This document shows, piece after piece, positions 747-8,872 of a DNA stretch of 26,830 bases (position 1 is the first letter of the stretch; every line of letters starts with the position of its first letter). The stretch covers positions 1 through 26,830 of the IMG/VR virus record IMGVR_UViG_3300030328_002852. The stretch is one strand, 5' to 3'. The notes under the pieces were generated by a model. It had not been told where the DNA came from. It was given only the letters and a program-made list of their open reading frames with translations, and ran no database searches. The position numbers and the translations under genes are program-made. This stretch comes from a virus.

Positions 747-921
747 CTGGAAGTCCAGCACTTCTGGCCTCCTCCTTAAGAGGAAAACTAGGAAGCGGGT
801 TAGAGGCGAGAGATTCTGCATATTTAAAAAGTGCGATAGCAGGAACGTATGCAATAAGTAAAAGAAAAAGATTCAATCTTCTCCTGATTCTATTTTGCTT
901 AAGGAGGCTTAATTTATTCAT
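685..921 (-). CDS. Small membrane protein (78 aa)
   Basis: The start overlaps the stop of the nuclease gene as ATGA (918-921), the classic arrangement for translational coupling. The N-terminus is positively charged (residues 1-16), followed by one hydrophobic stretch (about residues 17-35, LNLFLLLIAYVPAIALF). This predicts a single membrane-spanning segment with a short soluble tail. A holin-like or membrane-anchor role is possible, but holins usually sit in a lysis cassette and no endolysin is adjacent. No assigned function. Confidence 0.55.
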   Translation of the reverse strand: MNKLSLLKQNRIRRRLNLFLLLIAYVPAIALFKYAESLASNPLPSFPLKEEARSAGLPDDYYQTQHSERSSLWVLGKP

Positions 922-3094: not shown

Positions 3095-3226
3095 GGTGTG
3101 ATCCAGTTATGTGCCGAGTGTCTCCCCATTATGCCCCAAGAATGCCCCAGGGTCAATTATTCCCCAAGAATAAATTTCTACAATTCTTAACACTGTTATC
3201 ATAGAAATATCAAAGCAGGGTTCCAC
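3095..3226. promoter_or_regulatory. Divergent control region with CCCC-phased repeats
   Basis: This 132-bp gap separates the leftward operon (start 3094) from a rightward small gene (start 3227). It contains four CCCC tracts at 3124, 3134, 3145 and 3162. The first three lie 10 and 11 bp apart, so they would face one side of the helix. The fuller unit is CCCCAAGAAT, seen at 3134-3143 and 3162-3171. A near copy, TGCCCCAAGTAT, lies at 7652-7663 just upstream of the integrase start. I infer operators for a phage regulator. No repressor gene is visible in the window. Confidence 0.45.
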
Positions 3227-3382
3227 ATGAAACTCTCCACCGCACAAATTAAAAAAAGCCTTATCACCTCAGGTGCTGATCCTTTTCAAGTTGCAGCAGA
3301 AGCCATTGAAAGAGGTGACAGACTACTAGCTCACACCCAACGACTTGAAGAGATGATTCAAAACTCTTCCCTTAAGAATTAA
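3227..3382 (+). CDS. Small helical protein (51 aa)
   Basis: An ATG-started frame of 51 codons facing away from the leftward operon (begins MKLSTAQIKKSLITSG, ends SSLKN). It is predicted to be wholly helical, with alternating charged and aliphatic residues. It is the only rightward gene in the left arm and starts right after the CCCC repeat region, the position often taken by a lysogeny or early regulator in temperate phages. It is too short for me to see a helix-turn-helix. Its last 11 bases overlap the end of the convergent gene 3372-3602. Real-gene status is likely but not certain. Confidence 0.5.
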   Translation: MKLSTAQIKKSLITSGADPFQVAAEAIERGDRLLAHTQRLEEMIQNSSLKN

Positions 3383-3602
3383 GGATTCTCCTGATCATCC
3401 AGCTCTTACTATTTGTATGGCTACAGCCAGCCATCTTTGCTAATTCTTTTTTACTCTTACCCCTATAAATTTCTTCCAGTTGTGGATCACTAATAATTCT
3501 TTTCTCTGGTGATCTATAAACAAACAAAGACCCAATCCCTTTCATTAACTTTCTAATCCATTTAAATAAGAAAAACTTTTTCTTAAAACCTCCTCTTCTC
3601 AT
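3372..3602 (-). CDS. Small basic protein with HTH-like C-terminus (76 aa)
   Basis: The frame is open to 3635, but ATG 3600-3602 (MRRGGFKKKFFLFKW) is preferred because it forms an ATGA overlap with the stop of the upstream gene. The N-terminal 30 residues are very basic and aromatic. The C-terminal half (about residues 40-75, EEIYRGKSKKELAKMAGCSHTNSK) reads like a helix-turn-helix ('...KELAKMAGCS...'). This could be a DNA-binding regulator near the terminase genes and the divergent control regions. Target unknown. Confidence 0.5.
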   Translation of the reverse strand: MRRGGFKKKFFLFKWIRKLMKGIGSLFVYRSPEKRIISDPQLEEIYRGKSKKELAKMAGCSHTNSKSWMIRRILNS

Positions 3603-3811: not shown

Positions 3812-3904
3812 TTTTTTCTCCCTTTTTTTATCAAAGTATACCCATCCTTAGGCAGAATGAAATCTTTTCTAGTACTCTGTCCTTATTAGCCTTTATTCTT
3901 CAGA
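3812..3904. promoter_or_regulatory. Divergent gap before terminase genes
   Basis: A 93-bp AT-rich gap between the leftward zinc-ribbon gene and the rightward terS. By position it should hold divergent promoters, and it is where a cos or pac packaging site would be expected. I see AT-rich stretches but no clear -35/-10 pair and no convincing inverted repeat, so this is a positional call only. Confidence 0.25.
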
Positions 3905-4234
3905 GTGACAAAGAAAGGTAAGAAAGGAACTAAATATGAAGTCAGCTCTAGAATTTCTGCTGTTTATGGACTCTTAGCATCGGCAGCTAGTAGGCAAGAA
4001 ATTATTCAACACTGTTCAGTAAATTTCAATGTGTCAGAGAGACAAGCTGATACTTATATAACAAGAGCAAGAGAACAAATTTCTAAAGATTGTGAATTAT
4101 CCAGACCTGCTTTTTTGGCTGAATGTTTAACACGTCTTAGAAATTATGAGAAGGCTGCAATTAAAAGAGGTCATATTCAAGTGGCTGTAAATTCTGTAAG
4201 ACTTCAAGCTGAATTGGTTGGCATTGCTTCATGA
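3905..4234 (+). CDS. terS: Terminase small subunit (probable)
   Basis: The 109-residue product begins at GTG 3905 with a lysine-rich tail. A helical DNA-binding region follows (about residues 30-60, SRQEIIQHCSVNFNVSERQ) that looks like a helix-turn-helix, and the C-terminus is helical and probably oligomerising. This architecture, the size and the immediate position before terL (ATGA overlap at 4231-4234) fit a small terminase, which recognises the packaging site and presents DNA to the large subunit. The assignment depends mainly on gene order, because small terminases are poorly conserved in sequence. Confidence 0.7.
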   Translation: MTKKGKKGTKYEVSSRISAVYGLLASAASRQEIIQHCSVNFNVSERQADTYITRAREQISKDCELSRPAFLAECLTRLRNYEKAAIKRGHIQVAVNSVRLQAELVGIAS

Positions 4235-5559
4235 GTCTTTTATTAGACTCTTGCCCTGGTGGATTACTTTTAGAACCGCCTGAACCTGCAACATCTAAAT
4301 TTGATTACTTAGCTTTATCTCAAAAACTTTATACAAATCTAACTGAACCACAAAAGTTGGTTTATGACGCTGGAGTGAGATTTACTTATCTCTGTTCAGG
4401 TAGAAGATTTGGAAAAACTTATTTAGCAATTACCAGATTAATTAATTGGGCTATTGAAAAGCCTGGTGGTCTTTTTTATTACGTTACTGCTACCTATCGC
4501 ATGGCAAAACAAATTGCTTGGATTCAACTAAAGCAGATGGTTCCCATGGAGATATTTGCATCAAAAAATGAAAGTGATTTATCTGTAACTCTCACTAATG
4601 GATCAACTATTTCTTTAAAAGGTGCAGAAGATCCAGACAAATTAAGAGGGGTTTCTTTGTCTGGAGTTGTTGTTGATGAGGCGGCGTTTGTCAGGGAAGA
4701 TGCTTGGACAATGGTATTAAGGCCAGCTCTTTCTGATCAACAGGGTCCAGCTTGGTTTATTACTACACCCGCTGGATTGAACTGGTTTGCTGAGGCATGG
4801 TCAAATGCAGAAGATGATGATGATTGTTCTACCTTTTCATTCACTACTGTTGAAGGTGGCCATGTATCGAAGGAAGAAGTAGAGGCAGCAAAAAGAACAT
4901 TAGACAGCCGAACTTTTAGCCAAGAATATGAAGCCAGCTTTGTTAATTTGGTTGGTCGGGTTGTTCCAGACTTTGATGAAAATAATATCTCTGAAGATGT
5001 TGTTGATTTAGGTGGTGAGCTTCTTGTTTTCGCAGATTTCAACGTGTCTCCCATGCACTGGATCATTTGCCAAAGAGTTGGTGGTGATCAATTACATGCC
5101 TTTGATGAGATTCATATTAAAGAAACTCATACAGATGAGGCTTGTTCAGAATTGCTTAGGCGTTATCCAAACAGAGAAATAAAAGCCTTTCCAGATCCAA
5201 CTGGTAATGCTAGAAAAACTTCTGCTGGAGGAATTACTGATCATGGCATCCTAAGAAATAGAGGTATCTGGGTTTATCCAAATAAAAGCCCTTATGGACA
5301 GACTGATAAAAGAAATGCGGTTAATGCAATGGTTATGGATGCAGAAGGAACAAGAAGATTCTTTATCCATCCAAGGTGTAAGCAAACAATTAAATCACTT
5401 AGGAACTTGACCTTTAAAGAAGGAACCAATATTCCAGATAAGGATTCAGGTTGGGATCATGGATGGGACGCAATTTCATACGGGATATTAGGAGCGTTTA
5501 ATAGAGTGAAGCCCTGGAAGTCTGGTAAGGCAAAAGCAAAGGTTGCTCAGATTTGGTAA
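4231..5559 (+). CDS. terL: Terminase large subunit
   Basis: A complete 442-residue packaging motor. The N-terminal ATPase domain has a Walker A motif (SGRRFGKT, residues 56-63), a Walker B motif with its catalytic glutamate (VVVDE, 146-150) and a coupling motif (WFITTPAG). The C-terminal nuclease domain shows the expected acidic residues: VFADFNVSP (D269), FPDPTG (D322) and DHGWDAISYGI (D409 or D413). It would pump DNA into a prohead docked at a portal and cut it to length. Portal genes normally follow directly, but here a non-coding stretch and the integrase follow instead. The frame is intact, with no sign of decay. Confidence 0.95.
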   Translation: MSLLLDSCPGGLLLEPPEPATSKFDYLALSQKLYTNLTEPQKLVYDAGVRFTYLCSGRRFGKTYLAITRLINWAIEKPGGLFYYVTATYRMAKQIAWIQLKQMVPMEIFASKNESDLSVTLTNGSTISLKGAEDPDKLRGVSLSGVVVDEAAFVREDAWTMVLRPALSDQQGPAWFITTPAGLNWFAEAWSNAEDDDDCSTFSFTTVEGGHVSKEEVEAAKRTLDSRTFSQEYEASFVNLVGRVVPDFDENNISEDVVDLGGELLVFADFNVSPMHWIICQRVGGDQLHAFDEIHIKETHTDEACSELLRRYPNREIKAFPDPTGNARKTSAGGITDHGILRNRGIWVYPNKSPYGQTDKRNAVNAMVMDAEGTRRFFIHPRCKQTIKSLRNLTFKEGTNIPDKDSGWDHGWDAISYGILGAFNRVKPWKSGKAKAKVAQIW

Positions 5560-5707
5560 CTGTCTAATGTCGCAGGTAAAAAACTAAAACTTTTATTTTT
5601 CCTACTTACACCCCCCATGTACGGTCCTTCCCATTGTGCTTCCTTAAGGGAAACAGTATACTAAGAATGTAGAAAAGACAGACAAGACAAACAAAACCCT
5701 AAGTACA

Positions 5708-5825
5708 CGGGCTGTAAGTCAAGTCAAACAACATCTAACAAGTTCAGGTACCGCCAGACCAAACCTTTTGAAATGGGTCAGGCCGCAAAAGATAAGCGTA
5801 ACCTTTAATGCTACCGATCAGCCCG
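5708..5825 (+). ncRNA. Candidate structured RNA downstream of terL
   Basis: Between terL and the integrase operon, 5560-5985 has no convincing gene. Inside it, CGGGCTG (5708-5714) pairs perfectly with CAGCCCG (5819-5825), closing a domain of about 118 nt. Within the domain, GCC-A-GACC (5753-5760) pairs with GGTC-A-GGC (5776-5783) around one A.A mismatch, and AGC/GCT and GGTA/TACC can add weaker helices. A rho-independent terminator follows at 5856-5880. I could not match it to tmRNA, 6S, RNase P, a group I or group II intron, or a hammerhead. It could be a small RNA, a structured 3' UTR of terL, or part of a packaging site. Confidence 0.4.
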
Positions 5826-5855
5826 AAACACTATCTAGGGGCAGATCTAAATTAA

Positions 5856-5880
5856 GCCTCCTTAATCGGAGGTTTTTTTT
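5856..5880 (+). terminator. Rho-independent terminator after terL and the structured RNA
   Basis: CCTCC (5857-5861) pairs with GGAGG (5868-5872) around a six-base loop and is followed by eight T residues (5873-5880). The stem extends by weak flanking pairs (AAG with TTT). It would end the terminase transcript and define the 3' end of the candidate RNA. Confidence 0.8.
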
Positions 5881-5956
5881 ATGGGATTCATTAGAATAAG
5901 ATTGCTGTTTATCCATGCAACTTATTTCTTAAGCACTTGACGGGAATTAGATATCC

Positions 5957-5987
5957 AACCTCTTGGCTTTATTGCTAAGGGGTTTTT
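5957..5987 (+). terminator. Second rightward terminator, facing the integrase operon
   Basis: AACCTCTTGGC (5957-5967) and GCTAAGGGGTT (5974-5984) form an 11-bp stem with two G.T pairs and a TTTATT loop, followed by a T-run to 5987. It lies between the rightward terminase transcript and the convergent leftward integrase operon, so it insulates the two. Confidence 0.7.
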
Positions 5988-6307: not shown

Positions 6308-7621
6308 TTAATCGTCAGGAAGAATGATAGATGACATTACACGTTTTCTATATTCTTCTTTTGATACCCATTTTAGATAATGATTTTTATGGGTTTCTAC
6401 ATCATGGCCCATTGCTAAAGCAGCTTGAGAAATATCTACGTGTTTGAATCTTGGATCTGTTGCCAGTCTTATAGCGAAGGTGTGTCTCAGGTCATAGCAC
6501 CTAATTTGTTTTTCAATTGTTTCTGGCTGATGTTGTCCTCTTGCATCTGGAACACTAGCCGCCCATTCAGGTAGCACCTGGCGCAATCTGTCACCAATAA
6601 ATTCACCAAGCTTTTTATTGTTCATGCATATTCCTTGATCAGTTGGATCTTTTGAATCCCAATCTTTTGATGGATCATGCTGGCTAACTAATTTAGGTTT
6701 TGCTATTTCATGCAATTGTTTTTGGCATTCTTCAAATCTGTTCTTTAGGCCATAGCGCACAATCCAAGATTTATATAAAGGGAAGACCCAATGTTCATAT
6801 TTAGATTTTGTTCTCCAATATCCAGGGACATAAACCCAACCAAATTGAATACCTTCTTCTTTGTTTTCTTCAGTGATATTTGAAACCCAATGAAGTTCAT
6901 GATTTCTCAATCCGTAATTCATGAGCATGGCCAAACACCATTGCTCTAGTTTGTATTTAGGCCATAAGTTGTCCAAATATTTTTCAGCTTCTTCTTGAGT
7001 TGGGATTCCTCTTATCTCAACTTTCTTTCCATTGGTCAATTTGTTCTGGCTATTAATTCTTTCATTGTGGAGATTTCTAAGGTCTTGATATTGCTTTTCA
7101 GTTAGCCAAGTAGGTTCCTGATTTTTATTATCTGCTTTTTTTAGAGCCTTAATTATTTGCTTGATAGTATCTAATCTATTTCTGCAAGCACTAGATCCAA
7201 GCTTTTTAACTGTTACCCAATCCTGTATAGCATCAAAATTTCTAGGAATATCATTTCTTTTTAAGTCATTTAATCCAGCCCAAAGGTTAACGGTTGAACC
7301 TTCTTTCATTCTTAAAGGCCAATCATCCTTGCAAGCTTTTTCTATCTCTGCCCAAGAAGGGAGAATTGTTTTAGTAGTTTCTTCTTTCTCGGTGGTTACT
7401 CCTGCCCAATCTTTTTGGTCGGTAACAATGCAGGCATCAAAAACTTTATTTATATCAATAGGATTATCTGTTCTAAATGGTTTGCATGAAATTCTTTTTC
7501 TGTCTTTTTGATCTCTTACATATATAAAAGGAGATTTAGAATCTTTCTCTAATCTCCATCTTGTCCCAGCTCTTTTTAGATCTTTTGTGTATTCAGGCCA
7601 GGTTCTAAGAATTAAGGCCAT
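6308..7621 (-). CDS. int: Tyrosine-family site-specific integrase
   Basis: The 437-residue product has the tyrosine-recombinase catalytic set: R239 in NYGLRNHEL, a lysine at 272-274 in WRTKSK, R379-H380 in YDLRHTFAIR, H406 in MGHDVETH and the nucleophile Y415 in KNHYLKWV. Box II reads Y-D-L-R where many members have H-D-L-R, so the first histidine is replaced by tyrosine (Y376), a tolerated variation. The N-terminal 80 residues would bind arm sites and the next 100 the core. It lies next to attP and is transcribed away from it, as is usual. It would integrate the circular genome into a host tRNA gene. Start ATG 7619-7621; no good ribosome-binding site is visible. Confidence 0.95.
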   Translation of the reverse strand: MALILRTWPEYTKDLKRAGTRWRLEKDSKSPFIYVRDQKDRKRISCKPFRTDNPIDINKVFDACIVTDQKDWAGVTTEKEETTKTILPSWAEIEKACKDDWPLRMKEGSTVNLWAGLNDLKRNDIPRNFDAIQDWVTVKKLGSSACRNRLDTIKQIIKALKKADNKNQEPTWLTEKQYQDLRNLHNERINSQNKLTNGKKVEIRGIPTQEEAEKYLDNLWPKYKLEQWCLAMLMNYGLRNHELHWVSNITEENKEEGIQFGWVYVPGYWRTKSKYEHWVFPLYKSWIVRYGLKNRFEECQKQLHEIAKPKLVSQHDPSKDWDSKDPTDQGICMNNKKLGEFIGDRLRQVLPEWAASVPDARGQHQPETIEKQIRCYDLRHTFAIRLATDPRFKHVDISQAALAMGHDVETHKNHYLKWVSKEEYRKRVMSSIILPDD

Positions 7622-7627
7622 TTAGGA

Positions 7628-7647
7628 AGTCGGGAAAAAGTCGGGAA
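7628..7647 (+). repeat. Integrase arm-type repeat pair, left side of attP
   Basis: AGTCGGGAA occurs at 7628-7636 and again at 7639-7647, 11 bp apart start to start, i.e. about one helical turn. The same pair, with one base changed in the second copy, occurs on the other side of the core at 7867-7886. Paired, phased direct repeats on both sides of a tRNA core are the expected layout of sites bound by the N-terminal domain of a tyrosine integrase. Confidence 0.7.
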
Positions 7648-7660
7648 GAATTGCCCCAAG

Positions 7661-7700
7661 TATAACCATGTATCACCAACTATCACCAACTATTCAACAG
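7661..7700 (+). repeat. Four tandem 10-bp units in attP arm
   Basis: TATAACCATG, TATCACCAAC, TATCACCAAC and TATTCAACAG lie head to tail, two of them identical (7671-7680 and 7681-7690). The 10-bp period matches one helical turn. Between the left arm repeats and the core, this is where excisionase or a host bending protein would bind; that role is inferred. Confidence 0.5.
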
Positions 7701-7741
7701 AAGAGAAGTAAATGTATTCCTTGAAATCCCTTTGAGGCAAT

Positions 7742-7768
7742 AAAAAAGCCCCTGAGGGCTTTGTTTTT
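7742..7768. terminator. Bidirectional terminator adjoining the attP tRNA core
   Basis: AAAGCCC (7745-7751) pairs with GGGCTTT (7756-7762) around CTGA. T-tracts lie on the plus-strand side (7761-7768) and, on the minus strand, beyond 7745. Read in the tRNA direction (minus) it falls just after the CCA end, so after integration it can replace the host tRNA gene's own terminator. Confidence 0.7.
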
Positions 7769-7866
7769 ATTTGGTGGCGGGGGGAAGATTTGAACTTCCG
7801 ACCTTCGGGTTATGAGTCCGAACTTATTTTCTAAAATCCCTTGATGGCATTAGACTAGGTTTTGAA

Positions 7867-7886
7867 AGTCGGGAAAAATTCGGGAA
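7867..7886 (+). repeat. Integrase arm-type repeat pair, right side of attP
   Basis: AGTCGGGAA (7867-7875) and ATTCGGGAA (7878-7886) repeat the left-side pair in the same orientation and with the same 11-bp phasing. The last base lies directly against the ATG of the neck gene at 7887, so integrase bound here would cover the start region of the tail operon. Confidence 0.7.
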
Positions 7887-8348
7887 ATGGCTTTAAAAGA
7901 TTGGGTTCCTCAGGTCAGGAAAGCTTTAGACCAAGCTTTGACTGATCATATCGCTCTTACACAGGGAAAGCTATCTCAAGCCAATCCAAAAGATACTGGC
8001 CGTATGGCTTCAAGTTGGTTTGTCGGAAAAGATCAACCTGATCTACAAACAAGGGATGAAAATTGGGGTAAACCTGCAAAAAGAAAATATCCAGGTGGTG
8101 TTGGAACTGAAGGAGTAATTGTTGAACCTGGAGTAATGAAATTAGATATTCCTTATTATCAAAAGAAAATTACTTCTGATTCTGATTGGTATATATCAAA
8201 TAATCTTCCATATGCTGAAAGGGTTGCATATGATCCTGTTTATGCAAAAGGAGCGCCAGGTGGTGTTGCTTGGTTTACAACAATTGCAACACAACAAAAA
8301 AACGATTTAAAAAAACGCATCCTTAAAGAACTAGGAAAAATCAAATGA
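7887..8348 (+). CDS. Neck / head-tail joining protein (HK97 gp10-like)
   Basis: The 153-residue product has a basic helical N-terminus, the motif NPKDTGRMASSW at residues 34-45 (P-x-D-T-G-x-x), and a C-terminal helix rich in lysine. This is the pattern of HK97 gp10-type neck proteins, which sit between the connector and the tail terminator. It is the first gene of the tail operon and overlaps the next gene by four bases. Its ATG immediately follows the last attP arm repeat, leaving only GGGAA as a possible ribosome-binding element. The genes normally preceding it (portal, protease, capsid, connector) are absent here. Confidence 0.7.
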   Translation: MALKDWVPQVRKALDQALTDHIALTQGKLSQANPKDTGRMASSWFVGKDQPDLQTRDENWGKPAKRKYPGGVGTEGVIVEPGVMKLDIPYYQKKITSDSDWYISNNLPYAERVAYDPVYAKGAPGGVAWFTTIATQQKNDLKKRILKELGKIK

Positions 8349-8773
8349 GTTTACAAACAATTAGATCTTTATTTGAGAGAAAAATGACAACAGCTTTTGC
8401 TGGCCTTTCTCCATCTGTTCCCGTGATGTATGACAACGTACAGGAGGAACCTCCAGGGGGAGCAAATACAGAATACGTTCAATTAATTGTTAGTTTTCCA
8501 TCTATAAGTGAGCCAGTTGTAACAAAAGCAGAAAGTGGAATTGAAGTAATTAGAGGAAGCGTTCAAGTTAGTTGCTACGGACCAAAAGCAAAAGGAATGA
8601 AAAGGTTGGAAGAAATGGCAGCCTTAGCAGCCTCAACTTTGAACACATTGAAAACAGAAGATACAACGATTAGAGCAAGCGTTGGAGAAATCAGTGGACC
8701 TATACCAGTAATCAATTCAAACAATCCACTTGCATTGGTAACTATTTCAGCTCCATTTATTGCAAAAGGTTAA
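8345..8773 (+). CDS. Tail terminator protein (lambda gpU-like)
   Basis: The 142-residue product has a helical N-terminus (RSLFERKMTTAFAGL), a central 'EYVQLIVSFP' strand and an alternating beta-helix pattern typical of tail terminator proteins. These cap the growing tail tube and join it to the neck. The position after a gp10-like protein and before the tube gene supports the call, as does the size. The start overlaps the previous stop as ATGA. No odd features. Confidence 0.65.
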   Translation: MSLQTIRSLFERKMTTAFAGLSPSVPVMYDNVQEEPPGGANTEYVQLIVSFPSISEPVVTKAESGIEVIRGSVQVSCYGPKAKGMKRLEEMAALAASTLNTLKTEDTTIRASVGEISGPIPVINSNNPLALVTISAPFIAKG

Positions 8774-8795
8774 GCCTCCTTAGGGTTAATATAAT
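8770..8795 (+). promoter_or_regulatory. Candidate promoter for the tail-tube gene
   Basis: A consensus TATAAT lies at 8790-8795, 78 bases before the tube gene start, in a roughly 100-bp gap inside an otherwise tightly packed operon. The -35 region (around 8767-8772) is weak. The gap also contains a 13-mer, TTAAGCCTCCTTA (8770-8782), that recurs at 5852-5864 and, inverted, at 900-912. With the terminator after the tube gene, it suggests a separate transcript. Confidence 0.4.
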
Positions 8796-8872
8796 GTTAT
8801 TGGTTAGCCCTAGCCAAAGCCCCAAGCCCCAAAAGAAACGCCCTCAAATTGTTTTTTATTAGGTAAATTCAA

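Follow-up and report, generated by a model that had tools for sequence, protein, structure and literature searches.

The late leader of phage lambda consists of the promoter PR', the 6S RNA, which is 194 nt long, and the terminator tR'. The mechanism of antitermination by lambda Q has been described (PMC6606751), and in phage HK022 the putRNA suppresses downstream termination in cis (PMC9378689). Phage-encoded small regulatory RNAs have been reviewed (PMC12197685), and the cyanophage non-coding RNAs known so far are mostly Rfam matches in T4-like phages (PMC9964418). Here we report a locus (locus A) between the terL and integrase genes of the window, by which we mean the whole stretch of DNA analysed, the first 26,830 bases of the 29,457-base IMG/VR record IMGVR_UViG_3300030328_002852. 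The reading that we put foremost, with about even confidence, is that positions 5618-5880 form a self-contained small-RNA gene of a temperate siphophage, from which a discrete RNA would be expressed under regulation and would act in trans by loop pairing. Comparison among related records shows a candidate promoter, a conserved and apparently non-coding body of ~210 nt (RNA A, predicted at 5669-5880 on the plus strand), a predicted terminator, a fixed position between terL and integrase, and an exchange of modules.

RNA A resembles the reviewed phage small RNAs (PMC12197685) in being short, non-coding and phage-encoded, with a promoter and an intrinsic terminator of its own between coding genes, but it matches no Rfam family and its 5' parts are exchanged modularly. 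The PR'-6S-tR' unit of lambda is similar in its layout of promoter, ~200-nt RNA and terminator, with a possible link to late genes. Unlike in lambda, a convergent integrase operon lies downstream of RNA A, with tail genes only from 7887, and the sequence of RNA A is kept better than expected of a mere start-stop leader; late genes do not stand directly past the terminator on the same strand, as they would behind a late leader. Like the putRNA of HK022 (PMC9378689), RNA A is a structured RNA right behind a phage promoter, and the leader at a second locus described below (locus B) can be likened to putRNA by the same layout; unlike putRNA, RNA A stops at its own terminator. With cabRNA of staphylococcal phages (PMC10686824), which measures hundreds of nucleotides, it shares being a structured RNA of the terminase region. 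However, cabRNA lies inside terS-terL, whereas RNA A is found downstream of terL and has a promoter of its own; no sensing cyclase is known in the case of RNA A. Finally, the CfrI antisense RNA and the Rfam RNAs wcaG, manA, glnA and abiF (PMC9964418, PMC12197685) are cyanophage non-coding RNAs, as RNA A probably is, but those come from T4-like cyanophages and RNA A matches none of the Rfam families.

The window has the layout of a temperate siphophage, judging from ORF calls and PHROG matches. An operon on the minus strand, which includes an exonuclease-like gene, comes before terS, terL, the gap and the integrase gene (minus strand), after which stand the connector, tail terminator and tail genes. 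terS is assigned by position, the PHROG that it matches being without known function. The upstream neighbour of RNA A is terL (4231-5559, plus strand; PHROG terminase large subunit, E = 3.9e-43), and its convergent downstream neighbour is an integrase of the tyrosine recombinase type (6308-7621, minus strand). A PHROG search with this integrase gave no match; its sole match in the phage collection, with ~25% identity across 97% of its length, is the integrase of cyanophage PSS2. A tRNA 3' remnant at 7774-7822, probably of a tRNA-Met with CAT anticodon, matches PSS2 as well and is flanked by repeats at 7621-7647 and 7860-7886; remnant and repeats are likely to be the attP core with integrase arm sites. 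Since both the tRNA remnant and the integrase match PSS2, the host is probably a cyanobacterium, and probably a marine one. The terL relatives found in the genome collection are all distant, and none of them is cyanobacterial.

Homologues were searched for with TerL, integrase, connector and portal queries and with DNA patterns. The order terL, gap, integrase was found in three further IMG/VR records, L003 (26.5 kb), L004 (15.8 kb) and L023 (37.7 kb, also called G001); no homologues were found in isolated phages. In all four records, the element TGTACGGTCCTTCCCATTG-N20-TATACT overlaps the end of terL or comes after it. This 45-bp element (5618-5662, plus strand, in the window) comprises an upstream box (5618-5633), a -35 hexamer TTGTGC (5634-5639), a 17-nt spacer containing CCTTAAGG and a -10 hexamer TATACT (5657-5662). 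Six records carry seven copies, of which four lie at locus A and three at locus B, with identical spacing and free spacer sequence; the -35 is TTGTGC or TTGTGG and the -10 is TATACT. The locus-B copies, the only others found in these genomes, precede the head block (L143 9347, minus strand; L146 9510, minus strand; L147 841, plus strand), and the one in L146 was called independently as a -35/17/-10 by a general promoter scan. Promoter A may be described as sigma-70-type with a conserved upstream box, and three features suggest that it is under control: its -35 is weak, the box around -40 to -55 is conserved, and the spacer contains the operator-like CCTTAAGG.

Sites resembling CCTnAGG are found close before a TATA-type -10 at 3834-3852 (minus strand), 5642-5662 (plus strand) and 8778-8796 (plus strand) of the window; the first precedes the early operon, the second RNA A and the third the major tail gene, and such sites are present in G001 too. 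With 1.25 sites expected in the window and three found, the case for one promoter class is no more than suggestive; perhaps they are operators of a single phage regulator.

The transcript would start 6-7 nt past the -10, near 5669, and would end in the T run of the terminator. The preliminary description had noted a long stretch without genes and a clean terminator after the structure, and both observations hold. From the terL stop (5559) to the integrase gene, no ORF of at least 60 aa is likely to be genuine, small minus-strand ORFs start only near 5985, the ORFs within RNA A of the window are all of at most 15 aa, and no ORF at locus A has a match outside the locus itself. The terminator scan placed an intrinsic terminator at 5854-5880 (plus strand; hairpin 5854-5875 and T run), and in all four records the unit ends in a hairpin with a T tail, despite differing sequence. 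The same scan called a second, tandem terminator-like hairpin at 5957-5984 (plus strand), which is present in L004 and absent from L003. An identical 18-nt stretch, TAAATTAAGCCTCCTTAA, occurs at the RNA A terminator (5848-5865, plus strand) and inverted near 900 (899-916, minus strand). At the level of sequence, the locus has what places it among phage small RNAs, namely its own promoter and an intrinsic terminator around non-coding sequence. An Rfam scan at lax thresholds over stretches of the window, L004, L143 and L149 gave nothing beyond chance, the sub-threshold matches being mostly terminator-driven. The packaging-RNA covariance models in Rfam (phi29-type) had no match to the window at lax thresholds, and the sequence analysis found no evidence of a cos site or packaging RNA at locus A. 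Words resembling a group I intron in the 3' part were dropped, having no Rfam match. The earlier suggestion of an RNA of no identified kind, perhaps a small RNA, stands in the form of a discrete conserved non-coding unit with promoter and terminator, belonging to none of the Rfam families.

Between promoter and terminator, RNA A is a mosaic. Window and L003 are alike throughout, differing at 0 of 92 positions in the 5' module and 4 of 100 in the 3' module, while 28% of four-fold degenerate sites in terL and 21% in the integrase gene differ between them. The sequence of RNA A thus appears to be kept far better than neutral sites. Some of this may be due to recent recombination, but the 3' module is 96% kept in L004 as well, whose 5' module differs. 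The exchangeable 5' module (5669-5740, plus strand) is the same in L003, and L004 and L023 have other modules; it is predicted to form a hairpin of stacked 3-bp helices (GAC/GUC, GAC/GUC, ACA/UGU and CCC/GGG). The constant 3' module (5741-5852, plus strand), with hairpins H1 (5753-5783), H2 (5795-5812) and H3 (5816-5847), is common to the window, L003 and L004. In L004, different 5' modules are joined onto it. L023 and L004 have only the hairpin module GTAGCTGGGGGAAGGCAGAC...CACCTCTAnAACAGCT in common, and the 3' part of L023 is its own. Matches to the 18-mer AGGCCGCAAAAGATAAGC in L013-L016 and L019 were rejected as chance, lying inside unrelated coding sequence, and matches of the covariance model R1 in L144, L146, L149 and L153 (E = 0.002-0.1) were terminator-driven where the alignment was inspected.

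A 7-bp closing helix around an internal hairpin had been proposed for this RNA, a description that is right in kind and partly right in structure. The closing helix (CGGGCTG/CAGCCCG, 5708-5714 with 5819-5825, plus strand) is present and perfectly paired, but it is not beyond chance: perfect helices of at least 7 bp with at least five G-C pairs were found in 21% of dinucleotide shuffles of 5560-5885. Nor is its role as the organising element supported: it competes for bases 5819-5825 with the local hairpin 5816-5847, which is favoured in the predicted fold and kept in L003 and L004, and its 5' arm is missing in L004. It is probably not the functional fold of RNA A. The internal hairpin fared better: GCCAGACC (5753-5760) faces GGGTCAGGC (5775/5776-5783) with seven pairs around an A-A mismatch. 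In this hairpin (H1), C5760-G5776 is changed on both sides to U-A in L003 and L004. H1-H3 are all paired in the three alignable 3' modules (window, L003 and L004), with one further pair changed from C-G to U-G. The two-sided change modestly supports H1; with three aligned sequences only, one such change at locus A is not above shuffled controls (158 of 500). Folding energy is modestly better than in shuffles for 5660-5885 (z = -2.2) and better for the 5' module (z = -2.2), no better for 5560-5885 (z = -0.86), and gives z = -0.97 (window) and 0.03 (L003) for the 3' module alone. Ranging from z = -2.2 to 0 by segment, it is weak evidence at locus A, and what is clearly beyond chance there is the conserved sequence, the promoter and the terminator rather than the folding energy.

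In the relatives, the stretch upstream of the head block holds RNA B, a leader of ~230 nt with about nine hairpins (L147 881-1125, plus strand; L146 9230-9470, minus strand; L143 9070-9303, minus strand; L153 2369-2612, plus strand). The covariance model brought up the fourth member, in L153, which keeps RNA B without the upstream box. In the helices of RNA B, five pairs are changed on both sides and 94% of cells are paired; sliding the partners leaves 0-1 pairs of this kind. In the records scanned, RNA B matches no Rfam family. Its structure is well supported, and it is a stronger case of a structured RNA than RNA A. A further candidate, RNA C, lies between RNA B and the portal gene (L149 ~3380-3530; L153 ~3200-3310; L143 ~8470-8605, minus strand) and is closed by GCTGGGG...CCCCAGC. 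Its inner stems differ in sequence with pairing kept, around constant GAU...UGAAAG and AUAACC, and for the copy in G001 the folding energy is far better than in shuffles (z = -4.9); it is possible that RNA C is a new ribozyme or regulatory RNA. In a distant relative, G004 (L045 5320-6250), the gap between terL and portal is also gene-less for several hundred bases and contains two identical GCCGCCTTTACGGGCGGC terminators ~140 bp apart; perhaps it consists of tandem small RNA units.

Pairing in trans is favoured for RNA A because its most constant part, beneath the varying 5' modules, holds two ACCUUU loops. The copy in the H1 loop (5763-5768, plus strand) is an anti-Shine-Dalgarno-like candidate pairing site with a predicted mean unpaired probability of 0.85, and the copy in the H2 loop (5801-5806, plus strand) is a second candidate with 0.80; over the window and L003 the predicted values are 0.80-0.95. 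ACCUYW, a motif picked after inspection, occurs 2-3 times per RNA A against 0.1-0.3 expected (~9-15x over-represented), and its copies in L004 and L023 are predicted not to be all exposed. RNA A would accumulate as a discrete small RNA, and the exposed loops of H1 and H2 may pair with mRNAs of host or phage at their ribosome-binding regions. A search for targets among the phage's own start regions gave nothing convincing (best z = -2.2).

The promoter element common to locus A and the head-block leader raises a different reading, a tentative one in our judgement: RNA A may be the cis leader of a late promoter, where transcription stops at 5880 (and 5984) unless the polymerase is termination-resistant, as it is made by Q at lambda PR'-6S-tR' or by an RNA element such as put of HK022, in which case it would run antisense across the integrase gene into the connector and tail genes. 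The element stands before the head block in relatives, there followed by the structured leader RNA B; loci A and B are divergent in G001 and flank the early region; and on the path from promoter A to the tail genes there are several terminators, including a hairpin near 7745-7770. Against this reading stand the convergent integrase operon, which together with the likely attP separates promoter A from the tail genes, and the promoter-like CCTnAGG site that the major tail gene has directly upstream (8778-8796, and in G001 too). L153, moreover, lacks the upstream box at locus B though RNA B is retained. We consider it unlikely that the two RNAs, A and B, form a hitherto unknown pair of structured RNAs under one regulated promoter element, which would coordinate the head and tail arms of late expression in a temperate cyanophage lineage, for example by RNA-based termination control, with the exchangeable 5' modules tuning the response. 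Somewhat more doubtful still is the view of locus A as a conserved DNA element, such as an operator cluster or a replication or packaging site, with the RNA incidental. Conservation at locus A is indeed strong in sequence rather than in structure, and the upstream box is kept at both loci, but conservation spans ~260 bp from promoter through terminator, module exchange between constant promoter and terminator fits a transcript, and real RNA covariation is seen at locus B under the same element.

Translation of the tiny peptides MYGPSHC..., M(G/S)QAAKDKRNL or MLPIS(P/L)KH... seems very improbable to us. Their frames are open in the window, L003 and L004, but no clear ribosome-binding site stands ahead of them, the few changes in them mostly alter the amino acid (G/S, P/L, Y/N), and the 3' frames are not common to L023, whose own 29-aa frame has no match. 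The preliminary description had expected the portal gene at this location, the place after terL that it takes in other siphophages such as L005/G004, and the notion of a decayed portal or other head gene at locus A is scarcely credible. In relatives that have the order terL-RNA-integrase or an overlapping gene order, an intact portal lies in another block, ~10 kb from the RNA locus and on the opposite strand (6732-8216 in G001 and 6441-7955 in L146, both minus strand). The segment is conserved between the window and L003 rather than decaying, and no homologue so far has portal-like coding sequence at locus A. No protein or profile match to a portal was found in the 29.5-kb record of the window, which is consistent with the block being missing because the record is a fragment. 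The L146 contig overlaps the left end of the window at 88-92% identity and has the same portal block as G001, where the block includes proteins resembling a Mu-gpF-type head protein and a scaffold, names suggested by sequence features. Since relatives carry their own portal and head genes, the earlier idea of a helper phage, with the virus as a satellite, is not needed.

The reading of RNA A as a small-RNA gene bears on phages whose RNAs have received little attention, as non-coding RNAs of temperate cyanophages have hardly been described. Locus A is probably a genuine phage gene for a new small RNA, and the best reading is that RNA A founds a new RNA family. The lineage is rich in structured RNAs, with no fewer than two and possibly three loci outside Rfam, two of them under one promoter element and one with module exchange. 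The promoter element and the covariance models R1 and R2 make the transcripts searchable in ocean metatranscriptomes. If confirmed, these RNAs would give a handle on the control of late expression or lysogeny in such phages.
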